Below are positions 1 through 5,255 of a DNA stretch of 64,000 nucleotides, one piece after another. The notes below the pieces were generated by a model, which had not been told where the DNA came from, ran no database searches, and was given only the letters and a program-made list of their open reading frames with translations. Position numbers and translations under genes: made by a program. This DNA comes from Fundidesulfovibrio soli (GTDB lineage: Bacteria > Desulfobacterota > Desulfovibrionia > Desulfovibrionales > Desulfovibrionaceae). The first letter of the stretch is position 1, and each line of letters opens with the position of its first letter. The stretch is from positions 186,001-250,000 of the forward strand of contig NZ_JAKZKW010000001.1 of NCBI RefSeq assembly GCF_022808695.1, read 5' to 3'.

Positions 1-59
1 TAGACTTGTTTTGTAGCTCTTGGTGGCTACGTGGAGATATTTCACGGAGAACTCCTATA

Positions 60-90
60 ATCGAAAGGGCGGGCCTCTTGGACCCGCCCC
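60..90 (-). terminator. GC-rich hairpin after the first element gene
   Basis: Read on the minus strand, this lies just after the stop of the gene at 99-839. The arms GGGCGGG-T-CC (80-89) and GGCCCGCCC (67-75) pair with a 4-nt loop and are followed by TTTCGA. The T tract is short, so this is a weak intrinsic terminator or an RNA-stabilising hairpin. Confidence 0.5.
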
Positions 91-98
91 TGTGAGCG

Positions 99-839
99 TT
101 AAAGGACGACGGCCTTCTCCCGAACGAGCAGGTGCATTTTGTGGCCGAGCCTACCCTTGAGTTCCACGAACCACTCCTCGCCGAGCTTGCCCGCGTGCAA
201 CGTGAAGGAGGTTGGGTTGCTCTTGAGCGCCACGAGGCACTGCCTGACCATGAGAAGGAGGTCAGCATTGCCTTGCCTGGCCACTCCTCCCACCGCTGGC
301 CTCAGGCGCAGGGGAGTTCCCACTCCGGAGCAGATGTGGTCGATTTGCCCTTCACAGAGCCCAAGGACGATGTCCGAGGCGTTTCCGATGTGCTTGGTGA
401 TCAAGGAGGGTTTAAGGCCCGTGATGGGCTCGCCTTTGACATCCAGATACTGGGTGTGGGGATGGCTTATGACCGCATGACACTTCTGGCCAACCGGGAG
501 TTCCAGGTGGCCGTTGTCAGCATAATATGATTCGTCGCTTTCTCTATAATGGATGCGGACCTTCGTGCCTCCGACGAGGCGGTCCAGTTCTTTGAATGCC
601 TTCTCATTTCGATATATGGTCATCGGGACCGTGCTAAAATTGAGCCCGGTCATATCGGCTATGGCTATGCCGCCTCTAAACGAGGTCGATACTATTTTAT
701 CCTCGATCTTGATCACGGGGCCGGAAATGGCGGCCATGCATTTGAGCGTCCGAACCAGGCCCTGGAAAACATGGGCAGGCACGGTCGTCTCGTTGATGGG
801 GGGCACGCTCTCGGTGCGTGCTTGCAGGTCCTCGGACAT
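99..839 (-). CDS. hypothetical element protein, possibly sliding-clamp-like
   Basis: A 246-residue protein that I do not recognise by family. It is the last visible gene of a minus-strand series on the integrated element. A GGAGAA Shine-Dalgarno sequence lies about 5 nt before the ATG, so the start is well supported. The sequence has alternating short beta-type stretches and no signal peptide, membrane segment or cysteine cluster. Two halves (about residues 25-120 and 140-246) each contain beta-rich stretches ending in an ELPV or EL-K type segment. With the SF3 helicase gene next door, this loosely suggests a DNA sliding-clamp fold. That is only an inference from pattern; a structural prediction would decide it. 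Function is otherwise unknown. Confidence 0.6.
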   Translation of the reverse strand: MSEDLQARTESVPPINETTVPAHVFQGLVRTLKCMAAISGPVIKIEDKIVSTSFRGGIAIADMTGLNFSTVPMTIYRNEKAFKELDRLVGGTKVRIHYRESDESYYADNGHLELPVGQKCHAVISHPHTQYLDVKGEPITGLKPSLITKHIGNASDIVLGLCEGQIDHICSGVGTPLRLRPAVGGVARQGNADLLLMVRQCLVALKSNPTSFTLHAGKLGEEWFVELKGRLGHKMHLLVREKAVVL

Positions 840-886
840 CCTGTTCTCCTATTGGTCCGGCCAGATGCCGGTGTGATGGGTTGTCA

Positions 887-2389
887 CTATTGCACCGGGC
901 CTGTTGACGGATCCTGTTGCGACGAAGTCGACGGAGAAACGGACGTTGGCTGGGAGGTTAGTTCAAGGCATGTTATTCCTTGCCAGAAACGGATGCCGTC
1001 TGATTTTTGCTCCTTGAAGCCCTGCTGGCGGATCAGGATACCGAACTTTTTCATCGAGACAGGTTCGATGCAGGCCCTGCTGGCCCACTTCTGGTATTCG
1101 GAGAAGAGCAGGCCTTTGGGGACGCGTTTGGACTTGTCCCGCTCGCATTCGTCCTCGATAAAGCTGCCTATGGTGTCCATGACGGAACGGAAGTCGCGGG
1201 AAGCGTCACGGACGCATGCAGGTTCAGTAAGCTTCCCATTGGCGTGCCAGTGTTTGAAACCTCGGACAGCCCAGGCGAGAATTCCGGCTTTCTCCTGTTT
1301 CAACTCTTCGGCCAAGCCTTTGTTGACCTCGTCCTCGCTCACGGAAAGGTCGAAGGGAATGATCCTGATGCGCCGGTAGATGCCGTCGTCCGCACCACTG
1401 ACCTCCGGGAGGGTATTGACCGCCAGGAAGAACTTCGCCTGGGGGACGAACTCGAAGTATTCACGACCAATAAAGCGGGCAGTCATTTTGTCGCCGCCGG
1501 TCAAGCGTTTTACCAGGGCCTCATCCAGGTGCTTCCCGGTATTGATCTCCACCGCCGAAACGAACCTAGCTCCACGCAAACGTGCAATGTCGTTGCGGAT
1601 GGCCCTTGATTCGGATTTCATAAGGGTATGAGCCGGAGTGGTCTTGCCGTAGTCGCCCATGACCTCCAGGATGACGTCCACGAGCGTGGACTTGCCGTTC
1701 TTCCCCTTGCCGGTGAACACGATCATCTGCTGTTCTTGGACGGAGCCGGATAGGGCGTAGCCAAGATTTTCCTGGATGTAGTTGGCGAGGTCTTTCTGGC
1801 CGCACGTCACTTGGTCGATGAACTTTTCCCAGCCCGGACACGTGGCCTCGGGATCATACTTCACGCGGACATACTGGGTGATCAGGTCTTCAGGGGTGCT
1901 TGGACGGCGGATGCCGGTCACCAAGTCGAGGGTGCCGTTTTGTACGCCCAGCAGGTACGGATTGTTGTCGAGCTCATCTTGGGAGACACTGATCTTCGGG
2001 TCCACCTTGGCCAATTCCAGCATGGCGTCGATGCGGGACTTGCTCTGGGACTTCGCAAGCCACTTCTTGGCGTCCTTCTTGCCGACGTCCTCTCCGTAAA
2101 TGGTAACGAGGTTGCCGGGGTAGTTCGACTCCGCGCGTCTCTCCTCCAGCAGTCGGCGTACTCGGCCCATCAGCTCGCCTTTTGATGCGCTCCACTTGCC
2201 TTTGGTCCAGACAATCCATCGGTCGAGTTCCGGGACGTAGTGGACCTCGTCCTTGAACATCTCGGCGAAAAGGTCTGCGTTGCCCAGGTCGGTGAGCGGA
2301 TGGGTCACCTTGTCAGGAACGCAAGCCTTCTGAATAACTTCAGATGCTGCGGGCGAGCTTGCAGCGATGTCATTCGTTTCTTTGCTCAT
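887..2389 (-). CDS. P4/D5-type superfamily 3 helicase (primase C-terminal part), phage/plasmid type
   Basis: A 500-residue replication helicase of the phage/plasmid 'primase, P4 family' C-terminal type. Residues about 140-200 match the D5 N-terminal region (NPYLLGVQNGTLDL). The SF3 ATPase follows, with Walker A GKGKNGKST at 227-235, an acidic strand around GARFVSAVE, sensor region FLAVNTLP and the arginine-finger area GIYRRIRIIPF. The family often has an N-terminal primase domain; it is absent here, so either another protein primes or the helicase acts alone. A strong GGAGGA sits before the ATG. This gene is the best evidence that 1-5255 is a self-replicating or satellite-type mobile element. 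It probably loads at an origin inside the element. Confidence 0.9.
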   Translation of the reverse strand: MSKETNDIAASSPAASEVIQKACVPDKVTHPLTDLGNADLFAEMFKDEVHYVPELDRWIVWTKGKWSASKGELMGRVRRLLEERRAESNYPGNLVTIYGEDVGKKDAKKWLAKSQSKSRIDAMLELAKVDPKISVSQDELDNNPYLLGVQNGTLDLVTGIRRPSTPEDLITQYVRVKYDPEATCPGWEKFIDQVTCGQKDLANYIQENLGYALSGSVQEQQMIVFTGKGKNGKSTLVDVILEVMGDYGKTTPAHTLMKSESRAIRNDIARLRGARFVSAVEINTGKHLDEALVKRLTGGDKMTARFIGREYFEFVPQAKFFLAVNTLPEVSGADDGIYRRIRIIPFDLSVSEDEVNKGLAEELKQEKAGILAWAVRGFKHWHANGKLTEPACVRDASRDFRSVMDTIGSFIEDECERDKSKRVPKGLLFSEYQKWASRACIEPVSMKKFGILIRQQGFKEQKSDGIRFWQGITCLELTSQPTSVSPSTSSQQDPSTGPVQ

Positions 2390-2415
2390 GGCTTCCTCCG
2401 TTGAGCAGGGTTGTG

Positions 2416-2438
2416 AGGGCGGCCACGCCGACCGCCCT
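2416..2438 (-). terminator. GC-rich hairpin between element genes
   Basis: On the minus strand, directly after the DUF5131 gene stop, AGGGCGG and CCGCCCT pair around a 9-nt loop. No T run follows (CACAACC), so it may act in transcript processing or stability rather than as a true intrinsic terminator. Confidence 0.35.
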
Positions 2439-2452
2439 CGGTTGATGACCGT

Positions 2453-3154
2453 TTAGCCGGGGAACTGGTGCCAGACGTCACCGTCAAACATGTTGCTGTG
2501 GAACGGGGTGTTCTTGGAGCCCCACTGTTTGAAGAAGAAAGGGATACCCGAGACCCTGGCTGCCTCTTTGATGGGCATGACCCACTCGGCAAGCATGGGG
2601 CGAGCGCCTACGGCCTTCTCTCCACCAACGATGACCCAATCCAGACCACGGACGTCCAAGGACGGTACCGGGGCGATGAGCGGCTCCACGGACACGAATT
2701 TCACCTGAGCGCCGGTCTGCTTGAGCAACTCAACGCGATCTGCGTAGGCGTCTTCTTCGACCGTGACGCCCATCCAGATGTTCGGGTGCCAAGTGAGCTT
2801 GTTGTTGATACTTATGAGCCTTTGCGCTCGCTTCGTGAGCACCTGGAAAGTAAGGTGCGGATAGCGGCCAATTGCCGCGAAAACGTCCAGAATATACTGA
2901 TCCGGCACCTGGGCATGGAACAGGTCGCTCATGGAGTTGACGAAAACGCGTTTTGGCACCTTCCACTTGCTGGGCATGTTGAGCAGGCCGGGATGGCAGG
3001 TCACGTTGAAACCGTTGGCGTATTTCGAGATGCCAGCCCCGTGGAGGCGTGCGGCGTAGCCCTTGGCGTAGCAGCGAGCACAACCGGTGCTGATCGGGGT
3101 GCATCCGGTGACAGGGTTCCAGACCTCGTCGGTCCAGTCGATTTTCGAAGCCAT
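2453..3154 (-). CDS. DUF5131 family protein (phage Gp37/Gp68-like)
   Basis: A 233-residue protein from the chosen ATG at 3154, which has a GAGG box 8 nt upstream. The reading frame stays open further upstream, but those residues do not look like the family. It begins with the typical opening WTDEVWNPVTGC and a C-x6-C-x2-C cluster (GC...GCARCY), which resembles an iron-sulfur or zinc site. It continues with motifs seen in this phage-associated family: FVNSMSDLFH, LTKRAQRL, GVTVE and WVIVGGEK. The biochemical role of DUF5131 is not established to my knowledge. Many homologues lie in phages and next to a three-Cys-motif partner gene (tcmP); no such partner is visible here. It supports the phage or satellite nature of this region. 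Confidence 0.85.
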   Translation of the reverse strand: MASKIDWTDEVWNPVTGCTPISTGCARCYAKGYAARLHGAGISKYANGFNVTCHPGLLNMPSKWKVPKRVFVNSMSDLFHAQVPDQYILDVFAAIGRYPHLTFQVLTKRAQRLISINNKLTWHPNIWMGVTVEEDAYADRVELLKQTGAQVKFVSVEPLIAPVPSLDVRGLDWVIVGGEKAVGARPMLAEWVMPIKEAARVSGIPFFFKQWGSKNTPFHSNMFDGDVWHQFPG

Positions 3155-3400
3155 ATTGTACCTCGGCAGTTGTTGGTTCGTTGGTGCTCCCCCCAGCCAA
3201 GCCTTCGGCGTAGAGAGGAGCGACGTTGGAAAGAGCGGACATGAAATTTCCTGGAAGACTCGCAAAACGTGTCCCGTGCGTCCCGTTCTGGGCATAACGC
3301 ACTGAAAACGCTCGACAACACCTTGGAGGCATCCGACCATGTCCATCCCTCTGGAGTAGGGGGCGGCCTATTGGCCTGCCCCCCATGTTACAGTCCTCGG
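3155..3400. other. intergenic spacer with hairpin in the element
   Basis: A 246-bp gap between two minus-strand element genes. It holds a GC-rich hairpin near 3358-3385: on the minus strand GGGGGCAGGCC, a 4-nt AATA loop, then GGCCGCCCCC. It sits just after the stop of the gene at 3401-4327 and has no T tract. The remainder probably carries the promoter and leader of the DUF5131 gene. No convincing coding sequence was seen. Confidence 0.45.
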
Positions 3401-4327
3401 CTAGGCAGTCGCGTAGTGAGCGCGCCTAACCTGTGTGACCTTGCCGTTAGCGATGAGACGTTTGACGATAGCGTTTGCCGCCGGGTTGGAGATGCTGAAA
3501 CGCTCGCAGATCGCGGACATCTTCACCTCGGCTCCGCCTTCGGCTTTGAGGTACTCCAGTACCTTGAGGTCAGTGACCACCTCCGGAGTAGCGCGAAGCC
3601 TGGCACCGCCTTCCAATTGGAGGTAAACTTCCAGGTTGTGGCGACCCTCTTGTTCGATGGTGACGGTATGGACGTTGCGATCCGGCATCTGTGCAATCGT
3701 AATGAGACCGCCACCTGCGGGGCGCGGTGCAAGCGAGTTCACGAGGAAGACGGTGACGTCGTGTTCCACGGCAGCTTCGTTCAGCTTGTCCATCAACACG
3801 GCGTTTTTCTCGGCTGCCAGTTCACCGTTGGCGTCGTCTTCGAGGACCAGCACGTAAAGGTCCGGTTCGGCCAGCATGTCCTTGGTGATATCGGACAGGA
3901 CCGTCTCGTCGAAGGTGGGCCAGTCATGAACGTGGAAGTTACCGCCCTTGATCTTTTTGTCCTGGCGGCGGATTGCGGCCTCGACGTGAGGCCTTACCGG
4001 GGTTTTGGCGATGTAGCGGGCCGTCTTGTTCAACGTGCCGTGCTTACGCGCGACGATGGCTTCCAAACCGCTTACGGCTTTACAGGCCTGGATGACGACC
4101 TGGCGGCATGCGACCAAGTCGCCTTCCATCTTGATGAGACCGGCCTTGAAGAACTCGCGGTACTTCTGTTCCGAGGTAAGCGGAACGTCCTTGGCGATGT
4201 CGGCAGCGTTCCTGCCGGTGTTGAGGATTGCCTCCATCAGAGAGGGGGCAGCTTTAATTTGCTCCGTGGTGGAGGGAGTGGGAGGCGTGGCCGCAACACT
4301 GCTGTAAAGCTTATCTTGACCGTTCAT
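3401..4327 (-). CDS. hypothetical element protein with C-terminal winged-helix-like region
   Basis: A 308-residue protein of unknown function on the integrated element. A GGAGAG box lies about 8 nt before the ATG. The N-terminal 45 residues are low in complexity. The middle (about 110-235) contains alternating hydrophobic strands (LYVLVLEDD, VTVFLVNSLA, LITIAQ) of the kind seen in RecA- or Rossmann-like folds, but no Walker A motif is visible. The last 60 residues (LKVLEYLKAEGGAEVKMSAI onward) read like a winged helix-turn-helix. A DNA-binding or replication-accessory role is plausible from context only. Confidence 0.65.
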   Translation of the reverse strand: MNGQDKLYSSVAATPPTPSTTEQIKAAPSLMEAILNTGRNAADIAKDVPLTSEQKYREFFKAGLIKMEGDLVACRQVVIQACKAVSGLEAIVARKHGTLNKTARYIAKTPVRPHVEAAIRRQDKKIKGGNFHVHDWPTFDETVLSDITKDMLAEPDLYVLVLEDDANGELAAEKNAVLMDKLNEAAVEHDVTVFLVNSLAPRPAGGGLITIAQMPDRNVHTVTIEQEGRHNLEVYLQLEGGARLRATPEVVTDLKVLEYLKAEGGAEVKMSAICERFSISNPAANAIVKRLIANGKVTQVRRAHYATA

Positions 4328-4405
4328 TTGAAACTCTCCTGTTCTTGAAGCCCGGCTTAAGGACTTGGGTCAGGGTCACCGGGATCAGTTTCGACCCGAT
4401 GACCA

Positions 4406-4645
4406 TTACAGTTCCCAGGAGGGCTGAGCGGCGATCGTGGTAGAGCGCGCCTCAAGCCACTCAAGGAGAACCGGAGTTGGGTAGGCCACGCGACGACCCA
4501 GCTTGATCCGAGTTCTCGGACCAAGGCCAAGGGAGTCGAGGTTGGCCAGCGTCTTGGGAGAGAGCGCACCGCCGGTCAGCTTGCCGACCTGGTTGCGGGC
4601 GATGACGAGGGGAAGCCCCCCGTTGCCGAGTTCGAAAAGGGCCAT
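4406..4645 (-). CDS. AlpA/excisionase-like small DNA-binding protein
   Basis: A 79-residue protein from ATG 4645, preferred over the in-frame ATG at 4657 because a strong GGAGGG lies 5-6 nt before it. The arrangement resembles MerR-like winged-helix proteins of the AlpA/excisionase kind: a short N-terminal helix-turn-helix (LSPKTLANLDSLGLGP), the basic stretch RIKLGRRVAYP and a final helix PVLLEWLEAR. Members of this family activate integrase genes or direct excision of P4-like elements. It is the first gene of the minus-strand series and lies beside the repeat-rich end and the tRNA-Arg junction, which fits a regulator of excision. I see no integrase in the window; it may lie beyond the left edge. 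Confidence 0.8.
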   Translation of the reverse strand: MALFELGNGGLPLVIARNQVGKLTGGALSPKTLANLDSLGLGPRTRIKLGRRVAYPTPVLLEWLEARSTTIAAQPSWEL

Positions 4646-4760
4646 GATGCCCTCCATGCAGCTGGAGCTAGCTGCGGTTCGAAATCGGACGCATGTGCGG
4701 CCGCTGGGAAATGATGTCGCTAGGGGAGATCAAGAAGGGATTGCGGTACCCGTTGCCGGG

Positions 4761-4798
4761 CCGACTCTCTGCGCGGGCATGTGCCGTGCGCCTATGGG
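4761..4798 (+). repeat. 38-bp direct repeat, copy 1
   Basis: This copy matches 4833-4870 at 36 of 38 positions, with a 72-bp period. It contains an imperfect inverted repeat (GCGC-G-GGCA-TG-TGCC-GT-GCGC), as expected for a dimeric DNA-binding protein. It could be an operator, an arm-type recombination site or a replication iteron of the element. Confidence 0.85.
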
Positions 4799-4832
4799 GA
4801 TGTCTTCAGGGGAATTGCGGCCTTGTTTGAGA

Positions 4833-4870
4833 CCGACTCTTTGCGCGGGCATGTGCCGTGCGCTTATGGG
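4833..4870 (+). repeat. 38-bp direct repeat, copy 2
   Basis: Second copy of the repeat at 4761-4798. It differs by C to T at two positions, outside the core GGCATGTGCC dyad, which is unchanged. Conservation of the dyad while flanks drift suggests protein binding. Confidence 0.85.
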
Positions 4871-5102
4871 AGGGATTCATTGACGCGACTGAGATGCCTC
4901 ATCGCGAAAAAATCATTTAGGCGCGTTCTCGCCTCCTGGCAAGATTTTTTTTCAGATCCTCACATTTTTTCAAAGGCCACTGGGTGGGCACCACGCCATG
5001 CTCTTAAGGAGTAGGGCGTTGTGGTCCGAACCACCAGGAGGCTGAACACCGCACATGCAAGACGGCGACTTTTCCTGCTTTGGCCCTCAAGCACACGGCT
5101 AA

Positions 5103-5140
5103 GGTTGGATAACGGTTGGACAACTTGAGGGTTGAACAAG
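5103..5140 (+). repeat. tandem 11-bp repeats next to the tRNA-Arg junction
   Basis: GGTTGGATAAC (5103-5113) is followed at once by GGTTGGACAAC (5114-5124), with a third degenerate copy GGTTGAACAAG at 5130-5140. The position, within 80 bp of the 3' end of a tRNA that appears to be the integration target, suggests integrase arm-type or excisionase binding sites. That function is inferred. Confidence 0.7.
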
Positions 5141-5172
5141 AAAAAGGGACCTAGGCTGTTACCTAAGTCCCT
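5137..5172 (-). terminator. intrinsic terminator downstream of tRNA-Arg
   Basis: On the minus strand AGGGACTTAGG (5162-5172) pairs with CCTAGGTCCCT (5145-5155), with one wobble pair and a 6-nt loop, followed by TTTTTCTTG. It lies 8 nt after the CCA end and should end the tRNA transcript. Confidence 0.9.
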
Positions 5173-5179
5173 GATTTCT

Positions 5180-5255
5180 TGGTGCGCCCGGCAGGATTTG
5201 AACCTGCGGCCTACGGATTCGTAGTCCGGCGCTCTATCCGCTGAGCTACGGGCGC
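5180..5255 (-). tRNA. tRNA-Arg (anticodon ACG)
   Basis: A 76-nt gene read on the minus strand. The 7-bp acceptor stem GCGCCCG/CGGGCGC, the D arm, the anticodon loop CTACGAA with anticodon ACG, the T arm GGTTCGAATCC and an encoded CCA are all present. The mobile-element genes start on its 3' side, the usual side for integration at tRNA genes. Its 3' half is therefore the candidate attachment core, with the second copy expected outside the window. Confidence 0.97.

Follow-up and report, generated by a model that had tools for sequence, protein, structure and literature searches.

The described systems closest to the locus reported here include two from phages. In phage T4, according to the available part of PMC13216743, the gp45 sliding clamp is bound by alpha-glucosyltransferase but not by beta-glucosyltransferase; and in the available part of PMC6884629, 7-deazaguanines in phage DNA block restriction, DpdA2 having received its name in Vibrio phage nt-1. 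We analysed a 64,000-nucleotide stretch of the 4.0-Mb, 41-contig genome of Fundidesulfovibrio soli (positions 186001-250000 of contig NZ_JAKZKW010000001.1, abbreviated C1; this whole stretch is called the window) and read the contig leftward to C1:131001. The window begins inside a complete integrative element in tRNA-Arg(ACG) and holds its right end; the novel part of this element is an operon joining a helicase, a probable sliding clamp and a transglycosylase, which could link copying of the element to chemical marking of its DNA. For this trio we found no description in the open-access literature searched, as judged by titles and abstract openings.

The likeness to T4 (PMC13216743, available part) is that of a two-domain clamp beside, or bound by, a post-replicative DNA-modifying enzyme; T4, however, glucosylates its DNA and exchanges no base, and encodes a polymerase and a clamp loader of its own, whereas for the element we infer the binding. 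With DpdA and DpdA2 (PMC6884629, available part) the element's enzyme family shares the tRNA-guanine transglycosylase (TGT) fold, including similarity to a protein of phage nt-1, the order of the TGT motifs and a QueE-like gene near viral relatives, but it differs in its weak profile similarity, in its clamp-like neighbour and in that no DpdB or DpdC was seen. Genomic islands integrated in tRNA genes resemble the element in their attachment-site (att) repeats of the tRNA 3′ end, terminal integrase, lower guanine-plus-cytosine (GC) content and defence genes; the element differs from them by its own probable clamp and TGT-fold enzyme within a replication operon, and no conjugation family was seen. 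Phage P4-type satellites share tRNA integration and the P4-family superfamily 3 (SF3) helicase (TIGR01613), but the element lacks the primase part, spans 37.3 kb and has no packaging or capsid-remodelling gene among its 26 proteins scanned with Pfam, the set to which all Pfam negatives for the element below refer. PADLOC alone covered two further, longer open reading frames (ORFs; L008:662-1816 and 1597-2580), and some dozen short ORFs and an antisense one lay outside both scans.

A TGT-fold enzyme beside a probable sliding clamp

Leftward from the tRNA, the minus strand carries in order the genes of an 83-residue regulator, a 308-residue protein, a DUF5131 protein, the SF3/D5 helicase, and proteins of 246, 436, 125 and 550 residues. 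Intergenic gaps measure 47-78 bp down to the 436-residue gene, except for 246 bp before DUF5131, and a Shine-Dalgarno-like sequence was seen by eye before the starts of the 308-residue, DUF5131, helicase, 246-residue and 436-residue genes, with none before the 83-residue one. All five minus-strand ORFs that the original prediction placed toward the left window edge are present. Its pairing of a primase-less helicase with a protein of clamp-like pattern holds in both parts; the arrangement had been called unrecognised, and in this respect the lack of a primase is not odd by itself, since among 82 D5-type ORFs from 80 viral loci there are 23 with fewer than 600 residues, some of them cut by contig ends.

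Judged by the model of a relative, the 436-residue protein is a TGT-fold enzyme, and it is most likely DpdA-like. All but the first 45 bases of its gene lie outside the window, and its relatives are 35-43% identical to it. The modelled relative, from locus L063 (41% identical, with eight other relatives aligned), reached a predicted local distance difference test (pLDDT) score of 89 and a predicted template modelling (pTM) score of 0.90. All 50 rows listed by VIA-align for this model were TGT or archaeosine TGT entries (best Z 18.5, root-mean-square deviation 4.2, 306 residues), as were all four Foldseek matches below 0.001 (template modelling (TM) score about 0.43), and its viral Foldseek matches include the nt-1 protein. 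Five motifs, DSGG, D112, GG187, LG229 and D261, whose roles we take to be catalytic and base-binding, occur in TGT order in 22 of 22 sequences. By profile, three of the four members given weakly matched the PHROG 'queuine tRNA-ribosyltransferase' (phrog_887); the element's own protein matched nothing in Pfam, PADLOC or NCBIfam, the TGT had no match in phage or plasmid records, and the TGT profile found no PDB chain. Near the viral relatives, a radical S-adenosylmethionine (SAM) gene adjoins the TGT relative or lies within ~2 kb of it in three of seven loci read, on contigs of 65-315 kb, and its best NCBIfam models are QueE, with scores below the cut-offs. TGT and QueC are present in the host and its genus (7/7 genomes), and a 7-deazaguanine precursor should therefore be at hand for an enzyme whose substrate would be DNA.

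The 246-residue protein probably has a clamp fold, as suggested by structure comparison of its model. In Foldseek, ranks 1-4 were T4-type gp45 proteins (E 6.6e-4 to 5e-3, 242-249 columns, TM about 0.33), ranks 5-7 were DnaN and rank 8 a herpes polymerase-holoenzyme chain, with the first unrelated entry at rank 9; in VIA-align, 48 of the 50 rows listed were clamp entries, at Z 5.4-6.0. The weight of the clamp reading comes from gp45, PCNA and DnaN turning up together. Profile comparisons of the family with gp45, DnaN and controls gave no significant match; gp45 was the best of five in one of them (E 0.023), and another used five of the seven TGT loci, picked by their DSGGF motif.

The protein belongs, on profile evidence, to a divergent family. 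Single-sequence searches with it found no relative in phages, plasmids, viral contigs or genome contigs and only itself among 199 family genomes, and a relative from L053, used as query, found none in viral contigs; relatives emerged only when genes occupying the same position were combined in a profile. Of 348 genomes in the class, 10 have matches to this profile, at 11 places, and identity to the element's protein is 15-18% in the first six relatives and 10-18% over the clamp loci. When built from the other 11 members, without the element's protein, the profile still finds that protein at E 3.5e-10, and a profile of the eight D5-type members only finds it at E 1.3e-7, both among 10,228 ORFs. 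Two further ~250-residue homologues were recovered at loci known only for the 436-residue gene (L224, E 9e-6; L225, E 1e-3), at E 1.7e-4 and 0.025, respectively, when left out of the model.

What joins the two proteins is their neighbourhood, compared here in one bacterial class. Six of the seven helicase relatives first read (49% to 33% identical) have downstream ~250- and ~436-residue proteins in the same order, L054 being the one without them. Over all 13 loci of the clamp family, clamp and TGT are adjacent in 12 (11 of 12 without L225), and 11 (10 of 12 without L225) have a P-loop ATPase upstream, of SF3/D5 type in eight and AAA_25 in three (L084, L224 and L225). In L049 a radical SAM gene stands between SF3 helicase and clamp, L083 ends inside a gene, and L085, the exception to adjacency, has no upstream ATPase by the D5 profile. 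The neighbourhood is kept although identity to the element's proteins is 10-18% for the clamp and 35-43% for the TGT and although the type of ATPase changes, and in L084 and L224 the 436-residue gene is inverted yet still adjoins the clamp gene. Starting from the other partner, the 436-residue profile matches 14 of 348 class genomes, some by fragments only, and 12 of the 15 near-complete loci in the class have the ~250-residue partner. Two side observations belong to these loci. The clamp-family ORF at L085:10395-11000 (genome G236; E 3e-12), with no TGT in the 20 kb read and transposase-like ORFs around it by eye, may be a remnant; and at L053:1609-3591 and L084:1-2305 lie genes that resemble dndD and dndC by eye and share a stretch with the clamp-TGT pair.

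A number of results weigh against the clamp assignment and against the coupling built on it. The 246-residue model is poor (pLDDT 41, pTM 0.36, three alignment rows); the top two VIA-align rows are an unrelated immunity protein (Z 6.7 and 6.1), the clamp entries do not exceed Z 6.0 where values below 8 are the noise range of VIA, and the PCNA entries repeat one fold. No clamp family was found in Pfam or PHROGs for any of 11 members, hhalign of the family against gp45 was not significant (E 0.011-0.023), and clamp profiles searched against PDB sequences gave no clamp, with two chance matches at E 1.2 in one search and none in another. Profile comparison is weak either way, because hhalign also failed on known pairs: gp45 and DnaN gave E 0.33, and the DpdA-like family met the host TGT only in the DSGG motif, at E 0.02. 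The clamp at L225 is a weak assignment resting mainly on position. TGT relatives occur without a recognised clamp at three of the 15 near-complete class loci (L226, L227 and L228), and none of eight viral loci with 436-residue relatives has a ~250-residue protein; the three class loci group with viral locus L071 (support 100/100), and a single grouping of all partner-bearing 436-residue members has weak support (45/58). In the element itself no clamp loader was recognised, the upstream ATPase and the 550-residue P-loop protein being candidates, and no DpdB or DpdC family was seen with Pfam. Finally, clamp binding is not the main determinant of the T4 modification level, as far as the available part of PMC13216743 goes.

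A possible link between replication and DNA modification

Our best explanation, which we put forward tentatively, is that the genes from the regulator to the 550-residue protein form a replication-and-modification module in which clamp and transglycosylase are coupled to replication. Once the element has been excised, its DNA would be opened to host polymerases by the SF3 helicase, and the element's own two-domain clamp would be placed on the new DNA, where it would hold the DpdA-like transglycosylase on the replicating element. The enzyme would then swap guanine in the new DNA for a 7-deazaguanine from the host queuosine pathway, and the modification would shield the element from restriction systems, those of its own cargo included; that DUF5131 alters the base further is a guess. 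The contact between clamp and transglycosylase, like the protection, is a part that we infer. A private clamp needs another client because no polymerase was found in the element, and its constant neighbour is the gene of the TGT-fold enzyme. The wider proposition, of an element family with a dedicated gp45/PCNA-type clamp whose client is a DpdA-like transglycosylase rather than a polymerase, with guanine exchange tethered to the clamp and with SF3 and AAA_25 ATPases interchangeable, is more doubtful. Should it be true, a compact system would physically tie DNA hypermodification to replication in a bacterial element, and a two-domain clamp would be present in a host that has DnaN as its own. 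The small operon would be suited to studying the access of DpdA-type enzymes to guanines within double-stranded DNA, and the combination of ATPase, clamp and TGT would mark an integrative-element family able to travel with defence genes.

The same neighbourhood could arise if clamp and helicase served replication only, with a host or unrecognised polymerase, while the TGT modified element DNA independently and stood next to them as a gene also needed early. That 11 of 13 loci have a helicase-type ATPase ahead of the clamp would fit this account, as would the clamp-less TGT relatives of L226-L228 and of viral contigs, but it does not sit well with the lack of a polymerase family or with the inverted TGT genes that still adjoin the clamp in L084 and L224, and we consider it unlikely. 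That the module is instead a Dpd-like restriction-modification or other defence system, in which the TGT marks host DNA and its partners cut unmarked DNA, is improbable: the element is rich in defence genes, DUF5131 is a candidate defence gene in PADLOC and TGTs are central to Dpd systems (PMC12839542, available part), yet the constant neighbour is a helicase-type ATPase and not a nuclease, PADLOC had no match for TGT or clamp, and DpdB and DpdC were not seen. Less probable again is a transglycosylase acting on tRNA like the host TGT, beside a 246-residue protein that is no clamp. Its fold is that of tRNA enzymes, and the evidence for the clamp is a poor model; against this, the host already has a TGT, the gene lies within a replication operon, and the viral relatives stand near QueE-like genes, as in DNA-modifying phages (PMC6884629, available part); the viral Foldseek matches, moreover, include a protein of Vibrio phage nt-1, from which DpdA2 is known. 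The least probable alternative is a decayed prophage or phage satellite with unrecognised packaging genes, for although phages commonly carry D5 helicases like this one (1553 of 50,697 records) and several element proteins have no family, Pfam shows no capsid, terminase, portal or tail family, and neither the clamp nor the TGT occurs at any of the 80 viral loci that surround near D5 relatives.

Boundaries of the element and its site in the genus

The original prediction of an element integrated in tRNA-Arg and extending left from the tRNA 3′ end is borne out by att copies and an integrase (Table 1). It had proposed to look leftward for an integrase and a second tRNA-Arg 3′ end, and both were found, the second copy 37.3 kb to the left of the first, so that the outcome it had named as refuting did not occur; the absence of an integrase is true of the window, and the tyrosine integrase lies outside it, beginning ~118 bp inward of the left att copy. 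The direct repeats bound the element, and one of them rebuilds the tRNA 3′ end. Their match covers 60 bp at 95% (blastn within 119 kb, E 3.6e-22), far above chance, and the unit common to relatives comprises the 3′ half of tRNA-Arg(ACG) and a terminator. GC content per kb is 0.40-0.59 within the element and 0.66-0.73 right of the site; at the left edge of the window it is 0.55-0.60 to ~5500 and ~0.63-0.74 past 5750. An Rfam match of the Plastid-ycf2 5′UTR model to the opposite strand of the tRNA (5182-5255, plus strand; 51.5 bits against a cut-off of 65.7) is probably an artefact of a tRNA-like model.

Table 1. Features of the element and its operon (plain numbers, window positions; C1 numbers, contig positions)
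Feature	Position	Strand	Basis
tRNA-Arg(ACG), integration site	5180..5255	-	ARAGORN; Rfam RF00005, 72 bits
Right att copy (tRNA 3′ part and terminator)	5138..5228	.	blastn; ~91-bp unit common to relatives
83-residue AlpA/excisionase-like regulator (weak)	4406..4657	-	phrog_66, E 0.09
308-residue protein, C-terminal winged helix only	3401..4327	-	Pfam HTH_24, 9e-6
DUF5131, radical SAM mobile pair protein A-like	2453..3154	-	Pfam 2.5e-82; PADLOC PDC-M41B 2e-93
SF3/D5 (P4-family) helicase without primase part	887..2389	-	D5_N 9e-32; DUF5906 4e-9; TIGR01613 7e-87
246-residue probable two-domain (gp45/PCNA-type) sliding clamp	99..839	-	Foldseek and VIA-align on a poor model
436-residue DpdA-like transglycosylase (first 15 codons in window, GTG start)	1..45; gene C1:184735-186045	-	TGT fold of a relative
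Reverse transcriptase	C1:156421-158742 (L007:2821-5142)		PADLOC RT_XIII, 6e-89
Tyrosine integrase	C1:154070-155353		Pfam Phage_integrase, 4.6e-31
Left att copy	C1:153861-153952 (outside window)		blastn against right copy

Comparison of the site over seven genomes of the genus identifies it as a recurrent att site. Three other genomes have the tRNA copy and a second att copy: G009, with 32 kb between copies at 269018-269108 and 301069-301160, G118, with 8.3 kb between them, and G050, with ~1.5 kb. Beyond att their inserts have no DNA in common with the 37-kb element by blastn, except for short integrase stretches in G118. Integrases adjoining att are 68% (G075) and 47% (G118) identical to that of the element, and the 8.3-kb insert of G118 (L043, C37:356-8739), at the same tRNA-Arg, carries a relative of the 83-residue regulator with its integrase. 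In G094 and G106 a single att copy was found in the stretches read, but the left flanks differ, for which reason neither counts as a clean empty site, and G009 has different content at the site.

To the left of the element the flank agrees with G009 at 86.8% as far as C1:140449, and a degenerate third att copy lies at C1:140582-140668, 133 bp past the flank match, where the corresponding spacing in G009 is 135 bp. Because of this copy and its spacing, an older insert of ~13 kb (C1:140582-153860) apparently forms a tandem with the element. Its ORFs include, by eye, sensor/response-regulator and lipoprotein genes, and no integrase was noticed.

Other operon genes and cargo

The helicase scores above the TIGR01613 (P4-family primase C-terminal) cut-off, and its primase part is judged missing because its match to each of the four best PHROG primase profiles starts no earlier than about position 320-380 of 770-855. 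Its relatives occur in 75 of 199 family genomes (E 1e-20). The DUF5131 call of the original prediction is upheld by Pfam; we consider its start better placed at 3154 than at 3346, since the Pfam domain begins at ORF residue 67. The protein resembles A of the radical SAM mobile pair A/B (TIGR04471/TIGR04470), scoring 2e-21 against TIGR04471, far under the curated NCBIfam cut-off; a pair-B-like protein adjoins the TGT in L055, likewise far below the curated cut-offs, and no pair B was recognised in the element. We found no paper on DUF5131 in the open-access literature searched.

The AlpA-like regulator proposed at first is weak by profile, with no Pfam match, but has relatives that adjoin integrases at L043 (E about 2e-5) and L049 (about 5e-5). 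As for the two proteins described as unknown, the 246-residue one indeed has no family match, while the 308-residue one, without a match among phage or plasmid records, has a family in its C-terminal part only. Beyond the transglycosylase gene come a small, zinc-ribbon-like 125-residue protein and the 550-residue protein, a P-loop ATPase left without a family name, whose relatives occur at L050, L053, L083, L227 and L228. Two identities for the latter were given up: that of a clamp loader, suspected from a phrog_168 match (E 2.9e-4) in one relative, and that of a DUF927/Cch-like helicase, which rested on L055 and L052 proteins put in the profile by position. A profile of the element's protein with those of L050 and L053 only does not reach the L055, L052 or L063 proteins.

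The description of the element as a possible satellite is not supported: it spans 37.3 kb, Pfam recognised no capsid, terminase or portal family in the 26 proteins scanned, and defence genes recognised with PADLOC and Pfam take up a large part of the interior. Neither relaxase, conjugation, tail nor polymerase families were found by Pfam. The reverse transcriptase is retron-like, with weak N-terminal HEAT repeats, and is directly followed by an N6/N4 DNA methyltransferase. Consecutive genes for a PLD-helicase, a DUF1156 methyltransferase, DUF3780 and DUF499 (PADLOC 7e-236, the first as HKD(PLD)-helicase, 1e-246, 4e-36 and 2e-177, respectively) constitute a Type-2 BREX-related system as defined in the available part of PMC12839542. 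Other cargo includes a GmrSD-type protein, a Cas4-like nuclease, DUF3150 and an IetA-like AAA protein. The set of Cas4-like nuclease, DUF3150 and AAA protein (L008:1597-5692 = C1:174216-178311) recurs beside the clamp-less TGT relative of L226 (4682-8839), where nuclease and DUF3150 were recognised by the look of the sequence and the AAA protein by Pfam.

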